Source: a virus
IMG/VR virus record: IMGVR_UViG_3300010885_007319
Location: 1 to 45,270 of that record
Length of the DNA stretch: 45,270 bases
Reading direction: 5' to 3' (one strand)
The notes beneath the pieces were generated by a model. The model was not told the DNA's origin, searched no databases, and was given only the letters and a program-made list of their open reading frames with translations. Numbering within the stretch: the first letter of the stretch is position 1; every line of letters begins with the position of its first letter. Both the position numbers and the translations under genes were made by a program. This document shows, one piece after another, positions 11,639 to 40,155 of the stretch.

Positions 11639-14600
11639 TTAGTTACTGTAATAATATTGATCTGGCAATTCTGCAGGACCGTCTTGCAAGAATTTTGCAG
11701 GTATAGTATTACTATCCATTATTGACAAAGTTTTAGTGGATGAGACTTCGTTATTCCAAACCGTTGATCGGTTAAATTGGCGTTTTACCACTGTTAGCCT
11801 AACTCCGGTATCTATTCCGCCAGGGATATTTAATGTCAACCGCTGACCAGAAACAGTAAACTCCGGTGGCTGATAATTCAATCCACGATGCTCGTATCCT
11901 TTAAATGATTTTGCATCCTTTGAATCAGTATAAACCCAAACTTGATTATTAGAAGCAATAACATAGGCATCACCGTAATTGACAGTATCGGGCAATTGAT
12001 CAACTGTTGATTTAGTTCCCAATATATGTAGTGCAGGACTATCATAAGATAAATCAATATTTTGATGATAGGTGCCAACTTTGTTTAACAGCCTTCCACC
12101 ATAGTACACTGAAATTTGATCTGCTGCCAAAATACCAGAAGCCGTCGACAAAGTAATTCCATCATTGGCAAAAGTACCGGTGTTTGCACTATTGATATTA
12201 TAACGTACTATTTGCTTAACCGTTGATATTGTATAGTTTGTAGCAGTAGACACAGTTAATTGAGATTGTCGATATATATTCTCACCAAATGGAACCGTTT
12301 GACTAGGGCTTTGATCAATTACTCGTGTGCCAACTCTATTGTTAAAACACGGCGCTGTGCCCAAAGTACTTCTGCGTAATTGCCCCAACACGTTGTCGAT
12401 TATTGTAAAGAATTCAATTCGTTCCCCATTAATAATAATCACACCCGGAATATTTTTATTTACGTTTGCCGGAGTAAGCACACTGGCGTTGGCTACATGG
12501 ATTTCAGTATCAGTAAATGATAAATCCTGTGTCAAATATGTAGTATTGCTTTTGCTTAATCGTTTAAAATGAGTTCTATTAAAAATATCATTAAAAATTC
12601 TATAACCTAAAATTAAATTTGTATTATTAAATGTTGTTATAATTACTGGACCAGAAAATTTATTAGAAATTTGAACAGTAAGTCGATCATCAAGAATTTC
12701 AAAATCAATGAAGTTAGTTAATGGTACTCCTGCAACTGTTACCCAAATATAATTTTCATCCAATACAGGACGACTTATTTTGTATCGATTGCTTGTATTT
12801 TCGCTAAATGTCTCAGTCCTCATTAACATATTATCGGTATTGCTATATGTTATTATTTTAAGATCTCCAACACCATTCTTCCATTTTAATATTGCATCAA
12901 CTCCAGATGTACAAAGATATAATTTAGACCCGATAATATCATATTCATAATTTTGTTGGTTCGGAGGATAGCCAGTGCTGCCCGGTTTACTTACAATAGC
13001 AACTACGTCTCCTGGTTCCAATCGAAGAATAGTTATAGTAACATAATTTGATGCAAACGTAAAATCAAAACCGCGGCGCAATTCAACTCCGTTGACGTAA
13101 ACTCTAATATTATCTATACCAAATGTGCCGGCATTATTAATAGCAAACACTCGATTACTGGCTACGGTATAATAATCAATATGGGGCGGAGTTAATTTCT
13201 TACCGTTAAATTCTACTATGGCATTTGCAACTTCTGGTTTAGACGTATCCATTGCGTATGTAAGATCAAAAGGAATTTCAATATACGGAGCACCCGGCAG
13301 GATGGGAACGGGATTACTAGTATTGGTTATAACTTGTTCCCTAATTTCGCTATGCAATCGTTGTTCAGTACCAAAGAACCAAACTGTTACAGTATTGGTA
13401 CCAACTGGTAAATTATAGATATTAACAATTGCTCGGTTATCGTTTCGACCACCAAAAGATAATATATATCCATATTCGGTGCTGGTACTGACTTGAGAAA
13501 GGGTACGACCATTTACAGTTACATAAGCTGATTTAGCGCCAGCACTTTCTACGTGCAATGTTGATTGTGTAGATGTTATAGAACGAGTATTTAATAACCC
13601 CGCTTCTTCATTTGTACTCAAACTGCCCATACTAATGATACTATAAGATACTGTGCCACGAACAGTTTGGGGTACAATAATTAACTCAGTAGTTTCCCAA
13701 TTGACCGAATAATCTGTACCGTAAGATAATATCTTATTATTAAATGTAACTACTAAACTGTCCGTATTTAATGGTGCCAGGCTTAGTCTGCGAACTGTGC
13801 TAACGCCAATATTATATATTTCAAACGACGAAGTTAATATTACAGGAGAACTATTGGGATTCTTGGTGTAAACATTAATACCAAGACTATCGTGAATCTC
13901 ACCAGGTACAAGCTCTTCAGGAGCATGGCTTGTGTTAGGTGTTAAGAATCCGTCACCGTCAATTATAATATCCGTTGGACTAATACCCAATGCACTTATA
14001 CGAGTTGAGGTATTCCATGTGCCGCCTTCAATTACACTATCTAACAAACTGGCGGCAGAATTATAATCCCAAAATTCAATTTTGGAATTAATAGCAATAG
14101 TGTTGGTTGCAGTGTGATTAAAAACAACGGTATTGCTAGCAGTATTAACTTTAACTACTTGAACTGTATTTGCATTAAATTTATTAGTAGTGGTGCTAGT
14201 TACATTGACATGGTGTCCCACTGCAATACCCCGAACAGAGTTTAATGCAATACTGGTCCACGTACCACCAACAGATATTGAACTACTGGTAGATACTGCA
14301 CTAGTATAATATCCTACTTGATCGGCCCATACAGAAGTATCATATCCGGAAACATCCCACTCAGTACTGTAATCAAATTTTAGTCCTTCAATTCTAGTTT
14401 TAGGATACTCTATACCAGTCATTAATTGACCAAGATCTAGGCCCGGCATGCCGCTAGTTGCAGTATAATAATTTAAAATTCTATCAGTAGCACTTAATAA
14501 ATCAAGATTCTTTTCATAAGAAATTTTTATTATTATGCCGTCGCCCGGTGCGCTGTTTAAAAATACAAGATTACTACGCTGTTTATGATATTCACCGTGT

Positions 14601-17600
14601 GCAGCCTGATAGTATTTTATAGTAAATTCTGATAGTAATGCACGGACCCCGTCAACAGTAACAATAATTTTATTTTTATCAGGGGCAGCTAACCAGGATA
14701 ATTCAAATTCAGAATTTAACCCGTTACCAATAAATTCATCAACATTGTTTAAATTATCCAACTCAGGAATTTTACTAGTTCTATCAAATTTAATTCCAAT
14801 AGTATTTGATCGAACCTTTTGATTGACTAGTTGTGCATATATTTTTGCCGGTATAATATGTTCGCCACCACCAACCAATGTCGCTATGGGAGTAACATAA
14901 TAACCTTGTCCGGGATCAGTGACTATAATAGAAGTAACTGCGCCAGAAGTTATATAGGCAATTGCTTTTGCTCCGTATCCAGTATCACCGTTGGCTGCGG
15001 TAATTATTACACTAGGAACCGAGGTATATCCACTGCCCGGCTTGCCTACTGAAATGCTTCCCACATAATAAGAATGATTATCGGCCCACGATTTCCAAGG
15101 ATATGTTGTTAACATAGAGCTATCATCGTCAACTGTAATGAACTTATTAGTTACTTTATTGTATTTAGACGGGAGATCAAAATCAGTTGTATAAGATTTA
15201 GAATTATCTACAACAGAATTGTTAGTGGTAAATGTTCTAACCCGTGTATGATAAGGTTTAACTTCGGCAATATAATTTTCATAATTAATAGCATCTGATA
15301 ACTTATAGATCGGTGGCTGAGATAATTCTCCAGAATAATTTGTAACATTAATAAATGAAGTTTTGAATGCCCAGTCTAACAACTTTTGTTCAGACATTGC
15401 AAATTTAACTGCTTTAAAGAATAATAAATTCCAATTAATTTTTAATTTGTTAATGAATATGTCATTCTTTAACGCTTTTAAAATATATTCCAATTCTAAA
15501 TTAGGTGCTTGATCAAATAAAGTTTGATCATATGTATTATTTTGATCCCAACCCAACTCGCTGATTGAAGCATTCCACAAGCTATTTGAAATTTGTATTG
15601 TACCGCTTTCAGCATAAACTATATCAAAATCAACATCAAATGTTCCGACGCCTGTGTTAGTTTTTTCTAATATAATAAATTTGCCAAGTCCGCCATTTTT
15701 AACTTTTACATAAGACCCCGCGGCCAATGTAGGTAATTCTATAAGGTTGTACACATGATCAACTACATATGAATAATCTAAAAATTTATTATAAGTCGAG
15801 CTAACCCAATCAATATATTGCCAGTACAAGGATGTATTATATCTTTGAGTATGTAATCGAGTCCACGACGCTGAAGGAATATCATATGCAAATTTAGTCC
15901 ATTTATTATTATAAGTACTGTCAGTTAAAACAACAACAGTATACGGACGTACTATTAATTCGGGCGCTGTTACAAATCCCGAGCCGGCATTAACAATAGT
16001 TGCAGAAACTAGCTGACCTACTTCGTTAATTTCTGTAGTAATTACTGCATTACTATTTCCTAAGATAGTAACAGTGGGACTAATACGATATCCGTAACCG
16101 GCATTGTTAATTTTGATACTACGAATTTGCCCGTTCATAACGGTACAAGATAATTGTGGTTTTTCAAAACGATGACTATCAATTAATAGTAATGATTCAT
16201 TATCTTCTACTATTTGATCATACTCGTGTGTGTATGCATCGGGTATAATTTCTTGTTGATCTAAATTAATAAAACTATAGTTACCGGTAATACGTTCATT
16301 AATCAATACACTGTTGGCAAATTCAATTGTATTTCTTAATGCAGCAACTCGGTCTTTGAACAGGGTTTGCCTTGGACGAATATTAATTCCGTAACGAGAT
16401 CTTTCAGACAAACTAGGATCAGGAACAAGATTACCAAAACTATCATGTCCAATTAAACTGTCCATTAATTTCTTTTCTATTAATGCAGGAGGCGTGCCTT
16501 TTTCGGCACCCTCCTGCAATAATAACCATTCAGTGTGTTTAGGAATTTGATTATTAATACTATCTGTAGATATATTTAGATGTATCCTATCTCCAACCAA
16601 TTGATTGCCAATGTTGGCTACTGCTAACGCATTATTTGCTAGGATAGAAACATATTGCAAACCATATGATGCAGGATTTTCAATAATTTTTGCTACAGTA
16701 TAAGTATTGTTTCTTCTATTTTTTACATTAGGAGTAATAATAGAATTTTTAACCCAATAGTAATAATAGTTTGTAAATGACCCACTGATACTGTTATAGA
16801 TCTGTTTAACAGAGATAACACTGTTGTCGGGGTGTTTAGGTTGACCACTTACTCCTCTAGCTAGTCCGGCAGGCGTGTCTGCAATAGTAGCCCACTGACT
16901 AGGTAGTAATGATGATCCAGTCCATTCATATACATCGATACTAGACCCAGGGAACGTTTTACCCCAGTTGGTTTTTCTATATTCTAAACTACCTTGTTCG
17001 TACCATACATATTTTACAGTACTTAGGTCCCACCATAATTCACCCACGTGATTATCTAACCAATGATTGTTGGTATTGTTTACAGTTATTTCAGTACCTA
17101 AAGAATAAATCGCCGGATCAAATGCTGATTTGTATTTTAATTCTTGCTCAGCAACTCCTGAAATTTTTCCTTTTAATGGATCAACAACATCTAAGTAACT
17201 AATAACGCTGTCATTGAAAGAATCAAATAATGCAACTTTTCTTACAGTGTCAACCAATACAAGATCTGGCTGATATCTTAATAAATTCCAACTGTGTGCG
17301 GTTACATTTTTCTTATTGAATTTGTATAGCGAACTAATTTCATCATCTTCAAATGTGCTATTTTGATATGCAGGTGCACCAACATATACGGTATTGGCAT
17401 TAACTGCTACACTGTAACCAAAGTTAGTTCCGTTATTTGTGTTAGACGGTAAGAATTCGTCTGCTAGTTTAAATAATTTATTTTTTCTATTATAAACATA
17501 TGCTGATCCAGAATTAGTAATAACGTCAAAGAATGTAGTTGAGGCCAAGTCAAATGTTGTTGCTGCATCATTTTCAACACTGTTAGGATCATTAACATAG

Positions 17601-20600
17601 GGAGTACCTAATACAGGTTGTTCTTCCATTAAAGATACATATTTGTCAAAAGTTTCTACAATATGATTATTGGTACCAATTGCTGTAATTACTAATTCAG
17701 TAGCATCTGCATTTGAATCAATGTCTTGGCCAAACTTCATACCAACGCCGGCAACAGGATTTGTAATAACTTGTGATAAAGAAAACAGTCCCGAAATACC
17801 ATTTCTTTCATAGACTGCAACTTTTCCATAAGATTGATTTGATCCTCTTGAATTAGGAGCAGATACAAACATATAATTGCCTGTAACATTCATAGATATA
17901 GTATTACCAAAATTAGCATGGTGTTCAAACGGGCTAGTTATTGTTTGTAAATGATTGGTAGTAGTTCCACTGAACAACGACACTAACCCGGAACCGGTAG
18001 ACCAGCCCGGAGCTGAGATTGCAATAATTTCAGCATTAGGTGTTCCACTAATACTTGCACCCCACTGACTTCCAACATCAGACAGCTGAATTGAAGATGT
18101 GCTAACTTTTTTAATATAGTCAATTTTAATGGTTCCCACCGCAGTGGTACTAGTAGTGATCCAATAAGAATAAACAGAACCTGTACCAGTAGTAAAATTT
18201 TGGGGGGCTCCAACTAATAATAATTTACCAGTAGACATGCCTGCCTCGTATAAACTGCTACCAAATAATTCATTATTGCTAGGGTTAGGGCTTAACAAAA
18301 CTCGCTGGGGGAGTTCAGCAATACTTACAGGATTAATACTACTAATTTTTACTAATCCTTCTTGTGTATAATTAGAAGGAATACCGTCTTTTGATGCAAA
18401 TCGAACAGTGGTTGTTGTAGTAGATGATTTAACATTACTAACCAACGGAGCTCCTGCAAATAATAAACCATAACCAGTTGATCCGTTTGCATCAGAAAAC
18501 GGATGATCGTCATAAGCAACTGCATAACCAAATCCTGTATCACTACCGGGGGTAGGGGTATGATAATAATTTGTATTATTGTTAATGCCGTATCTAAATT
18601 TTAATTGAGTCGAGTTGGCTAATTCAGCATAGACAAACACATTACCTACGTTATTTTGAGTAGCAAATCCCGGAGCGCCTACTAAGAAAACTTTTGAATT
18701 CTTTTGTTTAGAAATAGACCACCCTAGGTGTTGAGCCGGAGTAGTACCAATTGCTTTGAGAGAAGATTCATTATAATTTTTTATTTTTTGATAAGTTGCC
18801 CATTTACCGTTGATATCAGTATCCGCCCATACAATTGATTTATTTGATAATTTTAAAAGTTCGGTATCTGAAGGAAGTGCATCAAAAGAATTATATCTAG
18901 AGCTGGTAAACTTAAACAATAGTCCCGGGGTGTCAGGGGCCACGCTGCTGGCAACATTTGTAGAAGTATTTTTTACACTAAATTTGTCTAGTTGAGAAAC
19001 GGAAGAAACTTCATAAACACCATTAACGGTAGAATCAAATTCTGCAATGGAAACAGTTTCGCCTACCGATAGTCCGTGGATATAATCAGTGACAAAATTT
19101 AAATGATCAACTTCTGAAGTCATACTTACCACTCTAGCCGGAGCTAGGGTATGTCTTAAAACATCCCAATCGCCGTTACTGGTAGATCCTAACCATACTT
19201 TACTACCTTCAAGTAAAGTATTAGTAGTAAGAGATAATAAATTACTTTTGTTAAATGCTGTTAAATTAACATCATCAAATCTAACGTATCCTGCAGGACT
19301 TAATTGCAAAATATCTATATCAGACGTTGTTGTAAACGTAGCAGTTGAAACATAATTTTTTGGTTTAATAGACAAGGTGTCTGCTGAAATGTATCTAATT
19401 AGATCGTTAGGAATTGATGGAATAGAATCTACTAAATTAATAACCTGCGGATTATCATTAAAGGTACCTTCTTGTAAAGGAATTTCAATTTCGTCGGCTG
19501 TGCTATAGGCACCATAATGCCCCACACGGAATGCCCATTCCTCCTTATAATCAATGTTTCCTTTTAGATTATGAATACTGGCTCTGGCCAATTTAGAAAT
19601 AGCATTACCTGTACCTTTTTCTTTAATAAATCCTTGATAGAATTTATACTGGCTAATAGGATTTGTAAAGATATTGTTTAGATAAATTCGAGGAGTATAT
19701 CCAGTTAAGTGTTGTGCGGCTTTTTGTTGACCTGCATCAAAGTTGTCAATGTCCAAACTATAAAAATCAGTAAACTGACTAATTTTATAATCAAAGTTAG
19801 ATAACAATCCCGCAACCGGTTCTTTACCCAATACAGTCCATTTGGTAAAATCAAAAGACGGTGAACCTGCAACATTTTTGTCAGCGGCGTAATATTTGCC
19901 ATCAAATCTAACAACATCGCTATATAGGTAGTCGGTAAACTGTGTCCACTCATAAATTTGTGCTGTGTCGTAAACAAAACCGGGACTAAAATAATCGCCG
20001 TCCCAGCCCGCTGTTCTAAATCCAACTAACTTCATACGGCGTTGACGGTAACCAGTTTCAATGTTAAAAATTGTGTCATTAAATAATGTAAAATTATTAA
20101 ACACCATTGCATGTTCTTTTTGCACTGAATTTAATCTAGCAAAATAAATTCCGTCTGTGGAGTTTACCGCTTGGATTGTGCAAACACCATCTTCTCTGTT
20201 TACTGTTAGAGATGTTTTTGGAAAAGCAACACCGTTAGCTTGAAGTACACTATACTCGTAGAAACTATCAAAGATATTGTCAACTACAGAAGTGGGTAAT
20301 CTAAATGTAATTTGATTTGCAAACGGACTTAGAGTAATAACACTATTATCGGCCCAGTTCTGCGTAGTCCAATACAAGTATTCTTTAGCAGAATAATTCC
20401 AATCTAATGTAGATTGCAGTTCGCTATTGTACTCAACAAAAGAAAATCCGTTGTCCTCAAGCCAAGCACCATACCCTACGATTAGATCATATATTTGCTG
20501 AAGTGTAGAAAATTCTGTGCCATAAGGAATTTGAGTAACTGATGATTTGTCAAATTGGGATGCAATCTGAACTGTTGCTCCACCAGTAACAGGTAAAGTA

Positions 20601-23600
20601 GGAATCTGTTGAAAATAAGATGCATTAAATGTATTGTCACTTCTATGACTGGATTTAACAATATAATATTTGTTAGCATAATATACAATTTGGCCTTGCT
20701 GATAATATGTTCCAGATATTGCCGCATTGGCAGTAGTGGTGTCCGCAGGTAATAATCCTGTTGCAGAACCTGTTGTACTCGGCGCCCATGTTAGATAAGG
20801 TTCCGATATGCCGCCAACTGTGATAGCAGGAGTGTTGGAATTACGAGTAACGGTATAAATGTTAAAATAAGGATGCTTAGAATCGTATCCTTTTATAATA
20901 AATCCTGTGTTGCTTTTTTGTACAATAATTCCAGATATAGCAGTAGACTTGATAGGATTGCTAACATTTAAAATTAGAGAATAATCCTCTGGTTGTAAAA
21001 TTGCACCAGGACTAGTGCTGACTGGATCAATTGCATCAATGATTATTTGTAATTCAGAATTGTCAACAAATCCGCCAACTTTATAAAATAAATTTACATC
21101 AATATTTTGCAAATCAGAAATCAATTCTTGATCATATTTGTTTGTACGTTGTCGGCCCACTTCGCTAACATAAACACTATAACCAGTGGTTAGTGTTGCA
21201 CCGTGCTGAGTATATACATTTTTAAGATTTAAAAAACTGTGGTCTGAGCCATATGACCACTGCCCTGCTTTATTTTTATTGACTCTAATAGGATCATACA
21301 TTAATGCTGAATATAATGCAGGTTTGGTCAATGCTAATAATTTTTGTAAAACAAATGGCCAGTAGCTGCTGCGGCGCCATGCAGTTTCTGCTGCGCCTTG
21401 ATCACCCAACATCCACGATTGCTTTTGATTATAAACAGTAATATTAGATGCAATTAATACAGTAGGATCAACCAAATCACCAGAGTCATCAACTGGTAAT
21501 AAATTCAACAGACCGATGCGAGTATAGAACGGATTAGTTCCTGCACGAGACCCATGACGTATTATACCGTGTTCTAAATCAGACCAAAGAATTGTATTGC
21601 CGGCGGTGTAAGGAGCAGGACCATATTCGGTTTCCCACCAGATTGGCTGGTCAATAAATCCCAACATCTCCCAAGGTGCAGTATGTGGTCGATCTGTATC
21701 GTAGAAATATTTGTAGACATTTCTCCAACTGCCACTTAACTGTAGACCTAACGTAGCATTATAACTACCTGTGTAATTCCAAGTAAATGGATTGGCCAAA
21801 TCAAATGCAGAATTTTGAGTATAATCAATCCCATGAATTCCGGACCAAGTGCTGAAATCACGTTGAATAATTTCATTAATTTCTTTTACAGAATATTCAT
21901 TATTTCTAAATGCTCCGGGCATGACCGCATTAATGTCAATTAATTCATTTCTGTATGTTGCTTTGATGTTGTTGTATATTCTTTTTTCTAATTCAAGAAT
22001 AATATTATCCCTATAGTCATTGTAGGCTAGTAAAATACTGCCATCATGGCATTGGATAACATCAGTAGGTGTAATATAACTAGTATCTGTAAACTTAATA
22101 GGAGCAAATTTAGGATACAATCCCAATTTAGTAGGAGTAGGAGGAACAAAGTTTCCTTCAGTATTGGCATAATCCTTAATTTCTATTTGATCACCAACTG
22201 CTAAATTTTTTAAGATTTCAATATATGAATCATTTGGAACAAATACATAATCTATTCCGCAAGTTAATTGATTACTATTTAAATAGACCAGCACAGACCG
22301 CATGGTCAATGCTAACGGATCGTATTCTAAAGTGATAGGATATAACTTATTTTTTGGGTTAGAAACATGCCATACTCTGCTGGTATAGTCTTTTCCGTAC
22401 GGTGCCATATCTGACATATAGTAGGAACTTGCAGAAGTTTTGTTAGCATTAATTTCTTTAAGGGCAATGTCAACTGCTGCTACTGGATTTGTTTGCAGAT
22501 CTAATGATTCAATTTTAGATAAAAATGCTAACTTAAATTGATTGTATTGATTGGCAGCTTTGGTCAATGCATCAATTACACTGTGTTCTTTTTGCCCAAT
22601 AAAAAATTGTGCAAAGGGCATTGGGTTTAAGTTTGAAATCAACCGCTTTCCACGCACAGCTAAATTAGCACGATCTCTTAATGCAATACCAGATAGCCCA
22701 GCAGTCATTGTGTTAAGGTGATCACTGATTTCACTAAGTGTCAGTGAGGAGATGGGGCCGTTTAAAGGATTATTAGTAAGACCCAGTGGTGCTTCGTAAT
22801 AAGAGTTTTCGTCAACAGTTATTAATGGAATAGCATACGGGTCTGCTTTAGACCATACATTAAAATAATCATTGCCAATTTTATAATAGGTAATGCCAGT
22901 GGATACGGTAGTTGTTACACGAGATGACGATACAATAGAAATAGAGCCTGTTGTAAAATAATTATTAAACAAGTAACTGCCTTGGCCAACACTATTTTTA
23001 TATTTTAAAGGAAATCCTAAAATAGTATCATTTGCGCCTTGGCCTATTGCATAACCAAAAATTTTATTACCTTTAAAGTCGCTTGCATACACATTAATAT
23101 CACTATAGCTATTGCCGTTATTGTCAAACAAATCAAACAAAGGAGCTTGATTTAGTGCAGTATGTTGTTGAGCAAATTTCCAAGTATCTCCGTCAAACCA
23201 CCAACTAGTACCGGCGTTTTTTATTCCAATTGCAACTGAAACTACAGATTCTGCAACAGGAGATTCAACTTCGACCAAAGTCAAACGCATCTTACTGTCA
23301 ATGAATACATATTCAACTTGATATATTTTAGATCTTACCATGTCATCTGTATCGGCAGAGAATACAATTCTATGACCTTGTTGTAAAAGTTGACCATCCA
23401 CAGTATGACCAGCAGATCCTTCAACTAGACTAAATGCATCAGTAGTAATTTCATCAATAAGATCAATTTCAGCAAGTCCATGAGATCCAAAATTATATAA
23501 TTTTAAATTTGCAACAAATTCAATAATTGGTCGGCAAGCACGCATCTTTAAAGGAAGTATCAGTTCTTTGCCCAATGCTGCTGCTGTAGCGGTAATAATA

Positions 23601-24400
23601 TCTTTATGTACCCAGCGATTATAACGCGACCAAGGATTTAAATCTTTACTGGCACGGTTAATAGTAATGTATTCAGGGTCAACTGGTAATTTTTTAAGAG
23701 CATCAAATGGATAATGATCAAAACCGTCAACATCAAATGCGTTTTCGTATACTTTGGCCAAAGCTTCGGGGCTGTCTAATAAATTGTAGTCCACTAGTAC
23801 AATTTTTGTTCCAACTCCTTCCACAAAATAATCTTTATTTAAATAAGACTCGGGTACTACGGTTGCAGTAAATCTAATCTTCATGCCGTTAGATAACACT
23901 AGGCCATTGGCAAATGTATATGTTGGTTGCCCTACAATGCTGTTTATATCTACAGATTGGTCAATATTGATAGTATCAGGACCGGTTACTAACCAATAGT
24001 ACTGTTGATAATTTACAAACTTATCCCAGTCAATATGCGGATTATAGGAATAAAATTCAGATCTAAATAATCTATCAAAATTATCAGTACTGCCACCATA
24101 TAGATTAATTTCATTAACTAGGTCATCTAATCCAACCACATTGTTGATTGTGCCTGTGGTATCTTTAACAATTAATGCAGGGTCTAATTGATAATTTTTT
24201 CTAAAAGGCAATGCCTCAGAAATATAAACATCGCCATTTTTATATGTGGGAGTATTTGTAGAACCAATATAACCATCTAGTCTTTCTAATTGTGGCTTTT
24301 GAATTAACTGATCAATCGTACTAGAAAGAAATTTAGAGTTTTTAGTGGTACGTAAAAACTCGGGAAGTAGATTAACTGATTTTATATTTTTATCTGCCAT
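11639..24400 (-). CDS. Giant tail/baseplate structural protein (4253 aa) with FG-GAP beta-propeller
   Basis: One open frame of 12.8 kb with no break. The N-terminus (NLLPEFLRTTKNSKFLSSTIDQL..., then ISEALPFRKNYQLDPALIVKDT, LYGGSTDNFDRLF, YNPHIDWDKFVNYQQYYW) matches, from memory, the start of very large virion proteins in T4-like cyanophages and pelagiphages. Near residue 1000 is another typical block (GAAETAWRRSSYWPFVLQKL). Residues about 1892-2364 form seven FG-GAP-like repeats. GxGYxxxPxVxI repeats appear twice (NAGYGYRISPTVTI; GSGYTSVPSVII) around residues 2750-3120. Near residue 4000 is PGVIIINGERIEFF...LRRSTLGTAP, a small beta-domain common in phage tail proteins. Its place directly after gp6 suggests a baseplate-attached, perhaps host-recognition, structure. 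The exact role is unknown. Confidence 0.82.
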   Translation of the reverse strand: MADKNIKSVNLLPEFLRTTKNSKFLSSTIDQLIQKPQLERLDGYIGSTNTPTYKNGDVYISEALPFRKNYQLDPALIVKDTTGTINNVVGLDDLVNEINLYGGSTDNFDRLFRSEFYSYNPHIDWDKFVNYQQYYWLVTGPDTINIDQSVDINSIVGQPTYTFANGLVLSNGMKIRFTATVVPESYLNKDYFVEGVGTKIVLVDYNLLDSPEALAKVYENAFDVDGFDHYPFDALKKLPVDPEYITINRASKDLNPWSRYNRWVHKDIITATAAALGKELILPLKMRACRPIIEFVANLKLYNFGSHGLAEIDLIDEITTDAFSLVEGSAGHTVDGQLLQQGHRIVFSADTDDMVRSKIYQVEYVFIDSKMRLTLVEVESPVAESVVSVAIGIKNAGTSWWFDGDTWKFAQQHTALNQAPLFDLFDNNGNSYSDINVYASDFKGNKIFGYAIGQGANDTILGFPLKYKNSVGQGSYLFNNYFTTGSISIVSSSRVTTTVSTGITYYKIGNDYFNVWSKADPYAIPLITVDENSYYEAPLGLTNNPLNGPISSLTLSEISDHLNTMTAGLSGIALRDRANLAVRGKRLISNLNPMPFAQFFIGQKEHSVIDALTKAANQYNQFKLAFLSKIESLDLQTNPVAAVDIALKEINANKTSASSYYMSDMAPYGKDYTSRVWHVSNPKNKLYPITLEYDPLALTMRSVLVYLNSNQLTCGIDYVFVPNDSYIEILKNLAVGDQIEIKDYANTEGNFVPPTPTKLGLYPKFAPIKFTDTSYITPTDVIQCHDGSILLAYNDYRDNIILELEKRIYNNIKATYRNELIDINAVMPGAFRNNEYSVKEINEIIQRDFSTWSGIHGIDYTQNSAFDLANPFTWNYTGSYNATLGLQLSGSWRNVYKYFYDTDRPHTAPWEMLGFIDQPIWWETEYGPAPYTAGNTILWSDLEHGIIRHGSRAGTNPFYTRIGLLNLLPVDDSGDLVDPTVLIASNITVYNQKQSWMLGDQGAAETAWRRSSYWPFVLQKLLALTKPALYSALMYDPIRVNKNKAGQWSYGSDHSFLNLKNVYTQHGATLTTGYSVYVSEVGRQRTNKYDQELISDLQNIDVNLFYKVGGFVDNSELQIIIDAIDPVSTSPGAILQPEDYSLILNVSNPIKSTAISGIIVQKSNTGFIIKGYDSKHPYFNIYTVTRNSNTPAITVGGISEPYLTWAPSTTGSATGLLPADTTTANAAISGTYYQQGQIVYYANKYYIVKSSHRSDNTFNASYFQQIPTLPVTGGATVQIASQFDKSSVTQIPYGTEFSTLQQIYDLIVGYGAWLEDNGFSFVEYNSELQSTLDWNYSAKEYLYWTTQNWADNSVITLSPFANQITFRLPTSVVDNIFDSFYEYSVLQANGVAFPKTSLTVNREDGVCTIQAVNSTDGIYFARLNSVQKEHAMVFNNFTLFNDTIFNIETGYRQRRMKLVGFRTAGWDGDYFSPGFVYDTAQIYEWTQFTDYLYSDVVRFDGKYYAADKNVAGSPSFDFTKWTVLGKEPVAGLLSNFDYKISQFTDFYSLDIDNFDAGQQKAAQHLTGYTPRIYLNNIFTNPISQYKFYQGFIKEKGTGNAISKLARASIHNLKGNIDYKEEWAFRVGHYGAYSTADEIEIPLQEGTFNDNPQVINLVDSIPSIPNDLIRYISADTLSIKPKNYVSTATFTTTSDIDILQLSPAGYVRFDDVNLTAFNKSNLLSLTTNTLLEGSKVWLGSTSNGDWDVLRHTLAPARVVSMTSEVDHLNFVTDYIHGLSVGETVSIAEFDSTVNGVYEVSSVSQLDKFSVKNTSTNVASSVAPDTPGLLFKFTSSRYNSFDALPSDTELLKLSNKSIVWADTDINGKWATYQKIKNYNESSLKAIGTTPAQHLGWSISKQKNSKVFLVGAPGFATQNNVGNVFVYAELANSTQLKFRYGINNNTNYYHTPTPGSDTGFGYAVAYDDHPFSDANGSTGYGLLFAGAPLVSNVKSSTTTTTVRFASKDGIPSNYTQEGLVKISSINPVSIAELPQRVLLSPNPSNNELFGSSLYEAGMSTGKLLLVGAPQNFTTGTGSVYSYWITTSTTAVGTIKIDYIKKVSTSSIQLSDVGSQWGASISGTPNAEIIAISAPGWSTGSGLVSLFSGTTTNHLQTITSPFEHHANFGNTISMNVTGNYMFVSAPNSRGSNQSYGKVAVYERNGISGLFSLSQVITNPVAGVGMKFGQDIDSNADATELVITAIGTNNHIVETFDKYVSLMEEQPVLGTPYVNDPNSVENDAATTFDLASTTFFDVITNSGSAYVYNRKNKLFKLADEFLPSNTNNGTNFGYSVAVNANTVYVGAPAYQNSTFEDDEISSLYKFNKKNVTAHSWNLLRYQPDLVLVDTVRKVALFDSFNDSVISYLDVVDPLKGKISGVAEQELKYKSAFDPAIYSLGTEITVNNTNNHWLDNHVGELWWDLSTVKYVWYEQGSLEYRKTNWGKTFPGSSIDVYEWTGSSLLPSQWATIADTPAGLARGVSGQPKHPDNSVISVKQIYNSISGSFTNYYYYWVKNSIITPNVKNRRNNTYTVAKIIENPASYGLQYVSILANNALAVANIGNQLVGDRIHLNISTDSINNQIPKHTEWLLLQEGAEKGTPPALIEKKLMDSLIGHDSFGNLVPDPSLSERSRYGINIRPRQTLFKDRVAALRNTIEFANSVLINERITGNYSFINLDQQEIIPDAYTHEYDQIVEDNESLLLIDSHRFEKPQLSCTVMNGQIRSIKINNAGYGYRISPTVTILGNSNAVITTEINEVGQLVSATIVNAGSGFVTAPELIVRPYTVVVLTDSTYNNKWTKFAYDIPSASWTRLHTQRYNTSLYWQYIDWVSSTYNKFLDYSYVVDHVYNLIELPTLAAGSYVKVKNGGLGKFIILEKTNTGVGTFDVDFDIVYAESGTIQISNSLWNASISELGWDQNNTYDQTLFDQAPNLELEYILKALKNDIFINKLKINWNLLFFKAVKFAMSEQKLLDWAFKTSFINVTNYSGELSQPPIYKLSDAINYENYIAEVKPYHTRVRTFTTNNSVVDNSKSYTTDFDLPSKYNKVTNKFITVDDDSSMLTTYPWKSWADNHSYYVGSISVGKPGSGYTSVPSVIITAANGDTGYGAKAIAYITSGAVTSIIVTDPGQGYYVTPIATLVGGGEHIIPAKIYAQLVNQKVRSNTIGIKFDRTSKIPELDNLNNVDEFIGNGLNSEFELSWLAAPDKNKIIVTVDGVRALLSEFTIKYYQAAHGEYHKQRSNLVFLNSAPGDGIIIKISYEKNLDLLSATDRILNYYTATSGMPGLDLGQLMTGIEYPKTRIEGLKFDYSTEWDVSGYDTSVWADQVGYYTSAVSTSSSISVGGTWTSIALNSVRGIAVGHHVNVTSTTTNKFNANTVQVVKVNTASNTVVFNHTATNTIAINSKIEFWDYNSAASLLDSVIEGGTWNTSTRISALGISPTDIIIDGDGFLTPNTSHAPEELVPGEIHDSLGINVYTKNPNSSPVILTSSFEIYNIGVSTVRRLSLAPLNTDSLVVTFNNKILSYGTDYSVNWETTELIIVPQTVRGTVSYSIISMGSLSTNEEAGLLNTRSITSTQSTLHVESAGAKSAYVTVNGRTLSQVSTSTEYGYILSFGGRNDNRAIVNIYNLPVGTNTVTVWFFGTEQRLHSEIREQVITNTSNPVPILPGAPYIEIPFDLTYAMDTSKPEVANAIVEFNGKKLTPPHIDYYTVASNRVFAINNAGTFGIDNIRVYVNGVELRRGFDFTFASNYVTITILRLEPGDVVAIVSKPGSTGYPPNQQNYEYDIIGSKLYLCTSGVDAILKWKNGVGDLKIITYSNTDNMLMRTETFSENTSNRYKISRPVLDENYIWVTVAGVPLTNFIDFEILDDRLTVQISNKFSGPVIITTFNNTNLILGYRIFNDIFNRTHFKRLSKSNTTYLTQDLSFTDTEIHVANASVLTPANVNKNIPGVIIINGERIEFFTIIDNVLGQLRRSTLGTAPCFNNRVGTRVIDQSPSQTVPFGENIYRQSQLTVSTATNYTISTVKQIVRYNINSANTGTFANDGITLSTASGILAADQISVYYGGRLLNKVGTYHQNIDLSYDSPALHILGTKSTVDQLPDTVNYGDAYVIASNNQVWVYTDSKDAKSFKGYEHRGLNYQPPEFTVSGQRLTLNIPGGIDTGVRLTVVKRQFNRSTVWNNEVSSTKTLSIMDSNTIPAKFLQDGPAELPDQYYYSN
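17311..18727 (-). repeat. Seven FG-GAP-like blades (predicted beta-propeller) inside the giant tail protein
   Basis: Residues about 1892-2364. Blades begin, in order: LGWSISKQ (then VFLVGAPG), GFGYAVAYD (GLLFAGAP), LFGSSLYEA (LLLVGAPQ), QWGASISGT (IIAISAPG), NFGNTISMN (YMFVSAPN), KFGQDIDSN (LVITAIGT, with an insertion before GSAYVYNRK) and NFGYSVAVN (TVYVGAPA). Each pairs an FG-like turn with a GAP-like turn and most end in a GxVxxY strand. Seven is the number expected for a closed integrin-alpha-type propeller. Seen in sequence; fold is inference. Confidence 0.7.
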
Positions 24401-34382: not shown

Positions 34383-34410
34383 TTGACTTACCTCAGATAC
34401 ATGCTATAAT
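34383..34410 (+). promoter_or_regulatory. Sigma70-type promoter for gp55
   Basis: TTGACT (34383-34388), 16-base spacer, TATAAT (34405-34410), 26 bases before the gp55 ATG. It lies in the 112-base gap between divergent operons (structural - strand, gp55-46 + strand). It predicts early expression of the late sigma factor by host polymerase. Confidence 0.78.
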
Positions 34411-34436
34411 CAAAGTTGAGGAATAATAATAACAAT

Positions 34437-38701: not shown

Positions 38702-39130
38702 ATGACTTGGACTTATCAAGGTCAAGTTGTAAATGAATTACCCGAGGACTGTGTGGGATATGTTTATCTTATCACTTGCACAATTTCGGGTCGCAAATAT
38801 ATTGGCAAAAAATTAAGTAAATTCTCTAAAACAACCTATAAGACTGTTAAGTTAAAAAATGGCACAAAAAAGAAAAAGAAAATTAGATCAAAGATAGACT
38901 CAGATTGGCGAGAATACTGGGGCAGTAGCCCTAATCTCCAAACTGATATAGACACCTTAGGCATAGACAAATTCACTCGAGAAATATTATACTACTGTAA
39001 ATCAAAAGCAGAAACATCTTACGTTGAAGCAAAAATCCAATTTGAAAGAAAAGTGTTAGAATCAGATGATTATTATAACGGCATTATAAATTGCCGTATC
39101 CATGGCTCCCATATAAAAAATAAAATTTAG
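38702..39130 (+). CDS. GIY-YIG-family-like nuclease (142 aa)
   Basis: 142 residues starting 3 bases after the preceding stop. The GIY-YIG core is present in degenerate form: GYVYLITCTISGRKYIGKKL (about 16-35) gives the first two strands, with RKYIGKK for YIG. Then comes a basic insert (KLKNGTKKKKKIRSK), DWREYWGSSPNLQTDI and the helix CKSKAETSYVEAKIQFERKVL with the conserved Glu. Known members of this T4-like phage family are homing-endonuclease relatives, but some are domesticated. No NUMOD motif follows the core. It is immediately upstream of the structured non-coding region, which is the reason for the finding on that site. Confidence 0.75.
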   Translation: MTWTYQGQVVNELPEDCVGYVYLITCTISGRKYIGKKLSKFSKTTYKTVKLKNGTKKKKKIRSKIDSDWREYWGSSPNLQTDIDTLGIDKFTREILYYCKSKAETSYVEAKIQFERKVLESDDYYNGIINCRIHGSHIKNKI

Positions 39131-39480
39131 GCACCTTAAGCGGTAACAAGCAAGCGTCAGCTAATATCGGACGCCCTGGACCAGGATCTCGGATCGCTGG
39201 GATGGAAATCTCTTGCCGCTAAGAGTACTCAATCACTATCCTTTACAGGACGAAGATCGCAAATTCGCCGCGGTTTGATTGTTTGAATAATAGAAAAAAG
39301 GCAAAATGAAGGGCTAGAGACGCCCTACGTAAGCAAGTATGTTAGTGTATATTTGTTTACCGCCGCTGGAATAAGACTGAGCTCGTGGTACAGGCCAACC
39401 GCCACTGTAACGCTCTAACACTAAGTGATATATGTTCAACTCGAATAATGTTTCTTTGCCCTGCTCGGGCAAAGTGTGAC
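39131..39480 (+). ncRNA. Candidate structured non-coding RNA, undescribed
   Basis: No open frame above 60 codons is present. The first 100 bases have 54 G/C, while neighbouring genes are clearly AT-rich. Stems I can pair by eye: closing helix 39135-39143 with 39216-39223 (one bulged A); GCGTC/GACGC 39154-39158/39170-39174; CCTG/CAGG 39175-39178/39182-39185; CAATCA/TGATTG 39230-39235/39276-39281 enclosing TCCT/AGGA; AGGGC/GCCCT 39310-39314/39322-39326; a 12-bp stem 39329-39340/39349-39360 with two G-U pairs, valid as RNA only on the + strand; and CTTTGCCC/GGGCAAAG 39454-39461/39467-39474. A near-late box TATAAAAA at 39112-39119 would start RNA close to 39125. It does not match tRNA, tmRNA or RNase P hallmarks. 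Ends are approximate. Confidence 0.6.
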
Positions 39481-39642
39481 TGAACAATCTGAATAATATT
39501 AATACAGCTTCGCTTATATCAGTATTTCATAAATAATCAACTATAAACAATTGCTCTGAGCGATTAGCGAAAGAGCATGTGAACGTAGTTCACATTAATA
39601 AGATAAATCATAAATAAAACACCAAGTTAGGACTTTCCTGTT
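39481..39642 (+). promoter_or_regulatory. Leader region with late promoters and hairpins, no gene
   Basis: The remaining 160 bases of the 39131-39642 gap hold CATAAATA at 39528-39535 and again at 39609-39616, both one base off the TATAAATA late box. Between them lie TGCTCT/AGAGCA (39552-39557/39572-39577) and an 8-bp stem ATGTGAAC/GTTCACAT with a GTA loop (39577-39584/39588-39595). No T tract follows, so these are not intrinsic terminators. They would be in the leader of the upstream start only. The nearer box is 27 bases from the next ATG. Confidence 0.5.
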
Positions 39643-40155
39643 ATGAAAATTAATGAACTAATCGTATTAGAAGAAACTCAAGTAGATGAGTTAAATCTTG
39701 CAGGTATGAAATCTGCTTTAAAGACCGGAGCTGGTGCGGTTGGCGGTGCTCTTAAGACAGGTGCACGGATGGCTGGTCAAGGAATTGTTAAAGGAGCTCA
39801 AGCAGTTGCTAAAAATGCACCTGCTATTGGCCAAGGAGTTAGCAATGTTGCCCAAGGGTTAAGTACTGCTGGAGTAGGACTGGTTAAGGGTGCAGGAGAT
39901 ATTGCTAGTCAAGCTGCTGGTGGTATTGGCCAAGCTGCCCTAGCAGGACTAGGCGGTGCAGTCCGTGGATATAAAACTGCTAGGAGTGGTGGCAAATTTA
40001 GTAATGCAAGTTGGGATACAGGAACTGCTAATCCTCCTAGTTCTTCCCCAATGGCACCTGCTGCTGGTAATCAAGAGCTAGATCAATTAAAAGCACAACT
40101 TCAAGCAATGGATCAACGTTTGCAAAAAGCAGGTATTGCTGAACGTAAATCTTAA
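39643..40155 (+). CDS. Gly/Ala-rich protein with capsid-targeting-like N-terminus (170 aa)
   Basis: 170 residues. The N-terminus MKINELIVLEETQVDEL resembles short leader peptides of T4-type internal head proteins (for example MKTYQEFI...), which the gp21 protease removes at L-x-E sites; an LEE is present here. Residues about 20-115 are a Gly/Ala-rich repeat of amphipathic helix (ALKTGAGAVGGALKTGARMAGQGIVKGAQAVAK...), with glycine-zipper spacing. The C-terminal part is a Pro/Ser linker followed by a helix QELDQLKAQLQAMDQRLQKA. So it could be an internal capsid or membrane-active protein packaged in the head; this is inference. Late-type boxes upstream support late expression. The stop overlaps the convergent gene at 40152 by four bases. 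Confidence 0.7.
   Translation: MKINELIVLEETQVDELNLAGMKSALKTGAGAVGGALKTGARMAGQGIVKGAQAVAKNAPAIGQGVSNVAQGLSTAGVGLVKGAGDIASQAAGGIGQAALAGLGGAVRGYKTARSGGKFSNASWDTGTANPPSSSPMAPAAGNQELDQLKAQLQAMDQRLQKAGIAERKS

Follow-up and report, generated by a model that had tools for sequence, protein, structure and literature searches.

Twin words in a predicted extended form of the Polynucleobacter-1 RNA from aquatic T4-like phages

The Polynucleobacter-1 RNA family (RF01718) was described in 2010 from Burkholderiales and from fresh or estuarine water (Weinberg 2010, PMC2864571). Our search of the literature found no function for this RNA. In type III toxin-antitoxin systems, direct repeats in a structured RNA lie beside a small protein. 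GOLLD, an RNA of phages, combines a variable 5′ part with a conserved 3′ part and contains pseudoknots and kissing loops (PMC12286853). Large virulent phages, too, have known satellites, one example being I55 and its jumbo phage JPTI55 (PMC12595487).

We examined a 45,270-base IMG/VR virus record (hereafter the window, meaning this whole stretch of DNA), which contains T4-like genes for a late sigma factor, gp47, gp46, and a T4 baseplate protein. Between the stop codon of a GIY-YIG gene (39130) and an ORF at 39643, the + strand holds no gene-sized ORF (39130–39643). GC content is ~0.52 over 39150–39249 compared with 0.3–0.4 on the flanks, in keeping with the G/C-rich start in an AT-rich genome reported in a preliminary description of this DNA. 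The genes before the gap form an operon, gp55-gp47-gp46-nuclease, and the RNA described here lies at its end, often just before convergent genes. In phage records, as in PHROGs (phrog_447), the GIY-YIG protein family (38702–39130) is commonly labelled 'NAD synthetase'; in Pfam it is SegE GIY-YIG, and the former label is likely a spreading misannotation of this SegE-type family. Elsewhere in the window, the tail-gene region on the minus strand (11639–24400) contains one ORF of 4253 residues.

In Rfam scans for known elements, the 5′ half of the gap matched RF01718 (Table 1), while its 3′ half and the twin words described below are absent from Rfam 15. The RNA is therefore not undescribed, as it had been called, because its 5′ 136 nt belong to this known family; what is new is that it appears to be more than twice as long as RF01718, with the Rfam model covering only its 5′ part. 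Four RF01718 helices are kept in relatives (90–100% paired, with double changes), and the RF01718 match and comparative covariation together bear out the earlier idea of a structured RNA in a T4-like phage. Other class assignments fared variously. ARAGORN detected neither a tRNA nor a tmRNA, and the all-family Rfam scans returned no match to a group I intron or to RNase P RNA, all as anticipated; the suggested GOLLD/ROOL-like class found no backing in the same scans, which gave no GOLLD match and, for the gap region, no ROOL covariance-model match. The GOLLD model (RF02032) matched neither the window nor six relatives, in a search whose control genomes were also without GOLLD. Sub-threshold near-matches to STnc290 and pan were taken as chance.

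More than 100 relatives were gathered with patterns drawn from the conserved letters. Conservation begins just after the nuclease stop and continues to ~39500, with a further conserved block near 39557–39595; in the alignments, conserved and covarying structure appears to span ~39138 to 39500 and probably reaches 39595. Across 48 phage sequences, 94.2% of the cells of 76 named pairs are paired and 49 of these 76 pairs show double-sided changes, whereas none of 500 shuffles was as good and slid controls were only 33–41% paired. An approximate covariation test that used an R-scape-like, tree-based null (our own approximation), applied to 91 relatives, identified 21 covarying column pairs at E < 0.05, mostly Watson–Crick, placing compensatory changes in the stems across relatives. 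The 12-bp helix proposed in the preliminary description (39329–39340/39349–39360) held, with double changes at 12/12 pairs, 92.5% pairing, and two covariant pairs (E = 0.012 and 0.015). By comparison, the closing stem proposed at 39135–39143/39216–39223 survived only at 39140–39143/39216–39219, and there not as a stem, being a 4-bp pseudoknot. Further covariant pairs lie near the 5′ pseudoknot (39150–39161, E = 0.016; 39158–39170, E = 0.0034), and the complete structure includes four non-nested interactions, comprising three pseudoknots and one kissing loop. Downstream of the core, a pair of hairpins is the probable 3′ end of the RNA. The GAGCGAUUAGCGA loop motif in the first of these hairpins occurs only once in the 45,270-base window. 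It is present in 23 of the 26 copies from bacteria; among the 196 from phages, 109 have it, compared with 41 on the opposite strand.

Table 1 Features of the RNA locus in the window
Feature	Position	Strand	Evidence or remark
SegE-type GIY-YIG gene (PF19835)	38702–39130	+	Upstream neighbour; dispensable, RNA also found without the gene
Structured RNA, core extent conserved in relatives	39138–39500	+	48-sequence alignment, 76-pair structure
Pseudoknot with loop of hairpin 39210–39214/39221–39225	39140–39143/39216–39219	+	82% paired, 4/4 double changes
Rfam RF01718 Polynucleobacter-1 RNA	39149–39284	+	119.9 bits (E = 1.2e-25; gathering 37), complete model (1–141)
Pseudoknot AGC/GCU (loop of helix 39154–39158/39170–39174)	39149–39151/39160–39162	+	93% paired
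Domain closed by 39230–39234/39277–39281	39230–39281	+	100% paired; 39233–39278 and 39258–39272 covariant
Hairpins inside the 39230–39281 domain	39240–39241/39248–39249; 39256–39260/39270–39274	+	
Hairpin GGGC/GCCC	39310–39326	+	Lowest E of the covariation scan in relatives, 2.6e-6
12-bp helix	39329–39360	+	39329–39340/39349–39360
7-bp kissing pseudoknot	Loop 39342–39348 with 39418–39424	+	7/7 double changes, 96.3% paired
Conserved 3′ core, helices 39379–39382/39412–39415 and 39385–39388/39402–39405	39365–39415	+	96–100% paired
3′ core pseudoknot	39365–39369/39395–39399	+	96–100% paired
Near-invariant GGUACNGGNCAACCGCC	39387–39403	+	Invariant alignment columns
First twin word, CUC + X1 (GAAUAAU, 39443–39449)	39440–39449	+	
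8-bp hairpin between twin words	39454–39474	+	95.6% paired
Second twin word, UCU + X2 (GAAUAAU, 39491–39497)	39488–39497	+	
Candidate 3′ end: hairpin 39552–39556/39573–39577, loop GAGCGAUUAGCGA; then hairpin 39578–39584/39588–39594	39552–39594	+	

Folded as a single sequence, the gap is unexceptional (z = −1.0, with 15 of 100 shuffles as good), and the evidence for RNA structure is comparative rather than drawn from single-sequence folding. On that evidence, we regard it as almost certain that the gap holds a structured RNA. A DNA signal mistaken for RNA, such as a packaging site or a replication origin, is something that phage and candidate satellites must share, but compensatory changes are numerous across the 14 helices and pseudoknots, with G-U pairs among them, and make this reading very improbable.

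To avoid choosing relatives by their RNA, we sampled loci anchored on gp46, and these are the closest relatives because only the best 80 of 597 gp46 matches were kept. Among these best 80 matches, R1, a model of the 3′ core with a shortened and approximate calibration, matched 46 of the 52 loci that continue for at least 2.3 kb after gp46, at distances of 0.9–2.05 kb downstream of that gene. The remaining six of the 52 carry a third RNA type (GGUUGGCGGGCCAG...ACCGCUGUGG...), which replaces the window's RNA at the same place (L645, L656, L679, L680, L686, and L714) and has twin words of its own at the end (ACAUGAA or ACAUAAA); one copy that was searched against Rfam gave no match. A twin-word RNA, in at least three versions, thus follows gp46 at all 52 such loci from the best 80 of 597 matches, and the RNA is kept at one locus in this clade of aquatic T4-like phages. 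RNAs that have very different 5′ halves and no Rfam match share the GGUACNGGNCAACCGCC motif of the 3′ core. Among isolated phages, blastn found no relatives and R1 found none in 11 complete isolate genomes, a set of isolates without a positive control; a pattern scan of genome contigs yielded chance matches only.

In the same gene neighbourhood, downstream of gp47/gp46, PA5oct-like jumbo phages have a stretch of 1.5 kb, for example at 16022–17534 of Pseudomonas phage 30-3 (LC727698.1, L639). This stretch is gene-free in some records and annotated with small hypothetical ORFs in others, is near-identical in 11 isolates, and gave no Rfam or R1 match. Its predicted fold, at −281 kcal/mol across 981 nt (z = −7.3 against 20 shuffles), is much more stable than chance would give, and the stretch may be a large RNA that awaits characterisation.

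The window's late genes have NATAAATA, which is like the T4 late promoter, TATAAATA. Directly upstream of the RNA no promoter stands out in the window: the TATA-like TATAAAAA box before 39131, mentioned in the preliminary description, consists of the C-terminal codons of the GIY-YIG gene (...HIKNKI), and we rejected it as the RNA's own promoter because it is conserved coding sequence with no TATA in relatives. At 34383–34410, a sigma-70-like pair, TTGACT (34383) and TATAAT (34405) separated by 16 nt, lies directly before the late-sigma gene at 34416; this pair stands at the head of the operon that ends with the RNA. Given a promoter at the operon head and none evident directly before the RNA, the window RNA may be cut from the operon transcript. 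The same arrangement, with the RNA at the operon end and often just before convergent genes, would also suit a cis-acting element that serves as 3′ UTR, processing signal, or terminator of the gp55-gp47-gp46-nuclease operon. We consider such a role improbable, as two loci have the RNA in inverted orientation to the adjoining genes and others have it outside the operon, the bacterial copies described below are divergent from their neighbour gene, and three distant copies have near-perfect sigma-70 promoters of their own directly upstream.

The RNA usually lies beside the nuclease gene, and the adjoining GIY-YIG gene had led to the suggestion of a decayed intron of that nuclease. At other loci, however, the RNA persists without the nuclease gene, apart from it, or inverted relative to it, and an intron origin is excluded for this reason. 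A group I intron was likewise rejected, there being no covariance-model match, and the RNA is intergenic in all contexts with no interrupted gene, leaving the intron reading a negligible probability. Inversion, nuclease-free loci, and own promoters in three distant copies together argue that the RNA is an independent gene.

The 3′ end of the RNA is laid out as A-CUC-X, a hairpin, and then UGAC and A-UCU-X (Table 1). In 170 of 190 distinct RNAs, which together use 14 different words, X1 is identical to X2, compared with an expectation of 22.6 under shuffled pairing (maximum 38 in 2000 shuffles). The 20 unequal pairs were not accepted as true exceptions, since most look like wrong anchor choices in the automated word finding. 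Covariation at columns 39443/39491 and 39449/39497 is of identical letters rather than of base pairs. We found no cis partner complementary to X inside the RNA beyond chance, and the complement of X is not enriched in neighbouring phage DNA. These observations bear on the possibility that the molecule forms an RNA-only assembly of the GOLLD/ROOL kind, with X as part of the contacts between RNA copies. Its variable 5′ and conserved 3′ parts, as reported for GOLLD (PMC12286853), and its kissing loops and pseudoknots fit such an assembly, but there is no GOLLD match and no complement of X turned up within the RNA above the chance level, and we judge this reading to be rather unlikely.

RF01718 is also present in Burkholderiales chromosomes. 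In one bacterial genus, which is likely Polynucleobacter, 186 genomes of ~2 Mb contain 25 copies in 20 genomes, and by coordinates every one of the 25 lies head-to-head with a DUF6641 gene. Twin words were found in nearly all bacterial copies (e.g., AACAAAAG, AGCGAAA, and GGCGAAAG); usual satellite words are NNNGAAAG, compared with RGAURAW for usual phage words. Some DUF6641 genes without an RF01718 neighbour adjoin other twin-word RNAs, and the rest have different neighbours. At L749, L755, and L745, DUF6641 is accompanied by a small ORF and then an RNA-like stretch with ACGCGGGUUG...CUAAUGACCCCGCCCU; the RNA-like stretches at L749 and L755 also contain twin words. The motif NTAAATA occurs on the divergent strand at 51 of 52 DUF6641 loci (shuffles mean 11), nearly always 118–141 nt from the DUF6641 gene match, and as a motif match it may represent a T4-like late promoter. 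DUF6641 was not found in the IMG/VR phage collection by a two-pattern search, yet PHROGs holds a matching family. The libraries searched gave no toxin or defence match for it, solved structures gave only weak matches above E 0.05, and we found no literature that names it.

Several of these loci lie in islands (L773–L778), present once or twice per genome, that combine an integrase, a clamp-loader-like ATPase, DUF6641, a twin-word RNA, and defence cargo. The integrase is of the tyrosine type (PF00589/phrog_216), the ATPase matches the T4-type clamp loader (phrog_168, E = 3e-22), and the cargo includes AbiEi and a methyltransferase. Of the traits by which satellites are recognised, an integrase and helper-type late promoters, the islands have both, the promoters as a motif match only. 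Because their gene content is that of a phage satellite, the islands look like candidate satellites of T4-like phages, and the bacteria that bear them are likely hosts of the freshwater T4-like phages carrying the RNA. Island and phage RNAs differ in their 3′ cores, with one weak R1 match (E = 0.008), and their kinship is suggested by RF01718 and the twin-word layout.

These comparisons show that the gap encodes one predicted non-coding RNA of ~365–460 nt, an extended form of the Polynucleobacter-1 RNA, with a scaffold built from interchangeable 5′ and core modules and a 3′ end that always has two copies of X around a hairpin. Because the twin words and their setting persist on a changing scaffold, the words would seem to be the functional end of the molecule. 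The X copies stay equal and change in step, and the best explanation is a single partner, for example a dimeric protein, that reads the two of them. Retention of the RNA by both phages and satellite-like islands points to action in trans while the phage grows, and we hold such action to be quite probable. Our main reading, to which we assign a probability of roughly 0.5, is that of a trans-acting scaffold RNA on which a single partner finds a recognition word twice. The scaffold would hold both X copies unpaired and at a fixed spacing, and a two-handed (dimeric or bivalent) partner would bind them at once, such that any change in the partner's taste would require both copies to change together.

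Binding of the twin words to one shared partner is slightly favoured over other explanations of their identity, which could instead come from a constraint inside the RNA or between RNA copies. Since the RNA occurs in satellite-like islands too, the partner is most likely something that phage and island both need during T4-like phage growth; we infer this class from the RNA's carriers alone. One candidate would be a phage-encoded late, replication, or packaging factor that the RNA recruits or redirects, although that the partner is phage-encoded is only a tentative suggestion. The usual satellite words differ from the usual phage words, so that the same partner is not obvious. As the two-pattern search of the phage collection gave no DUF6641, that protein may itself be the partner in bacteria. 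More speculatively, T4-like phages and their satellites might each carry a scaffold RNA ending in a duplicated word as parts of a helper-satellite RNA module, the RNA acting in trans in the phage programme and the satellite version, with DUF6641, redirecting it. If the islands are satellites, an RNA common to phage and parasite would offer an unusual handle on helper exploitation.

Alternatively, X could copy the site at which a host protein binds or cuts RNA, making the RNA a counter-defence or antitoxin-like decoy that aids the survival of phage and island in the same host. Short, diversifying twin words in phages and in islands with defence genes are consistent with a decoy, as is a small protein, DUF6641, that always lies beside the bacterial RNA. 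Nevertheless, DUF6641 has no toxin or defence match, the words are stable over hundreds of phages, and the scaffold is far larger than known decoys, and we therefore consider a decoy unlikely and prefer the scaffold RNA with a single partner for both words.

Bacterial copies of the RNA share with type III toxin-antitoxin systems direct repeats in a structured RNA and an adjoining small protein. They differ in having only two repeats and a gene that is divergent rather than co-transcribed, and DUF6641 showed no relation to known toxins in the libraries that were searched; membership of that class was rejected on the grounds of the divergent neighbour and its lack of a toxin match. The phage RNA and GOLLD (RF02032) have a variable 5′ and a conserved 3′ part in common, an analogy only, but show no match in sequence or structure, the phage RNA being about half the length of GOLLD and no tRNA having been found in the window. 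ROOL and the phage RNA are both ornate and phage-borne, with no ROOL match in the gap region. Like the I55 satellite, the bacterial islands have a tyrosine integrase and defence cargo, and no transfer genes were noticed in the island parts that were read; the integrase sites and the genes are different, and the islands are classed as candidate satellites by their gene content only. The main text of the I55/JPTI55 paper (PMC12595487) makes no mention of a twin-word RNA. The closest relationship is with Polynucleobacter-1, whose complete model fits the 5′ 136 nt and which shares the freshwater setting and the Burkholderiales. Its model stops at 39284, and the accessible portion of its published description is without the outer pseudoknot, the entire 3′ domain, twin words, any setting in phages or islands, and the link to DUF6641. 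Polynucleobacter-1 thereby gains its real length, a carrier in abundant freshwater T4-like phages, an island setting, and an always-adjacent gene, DUF6641.
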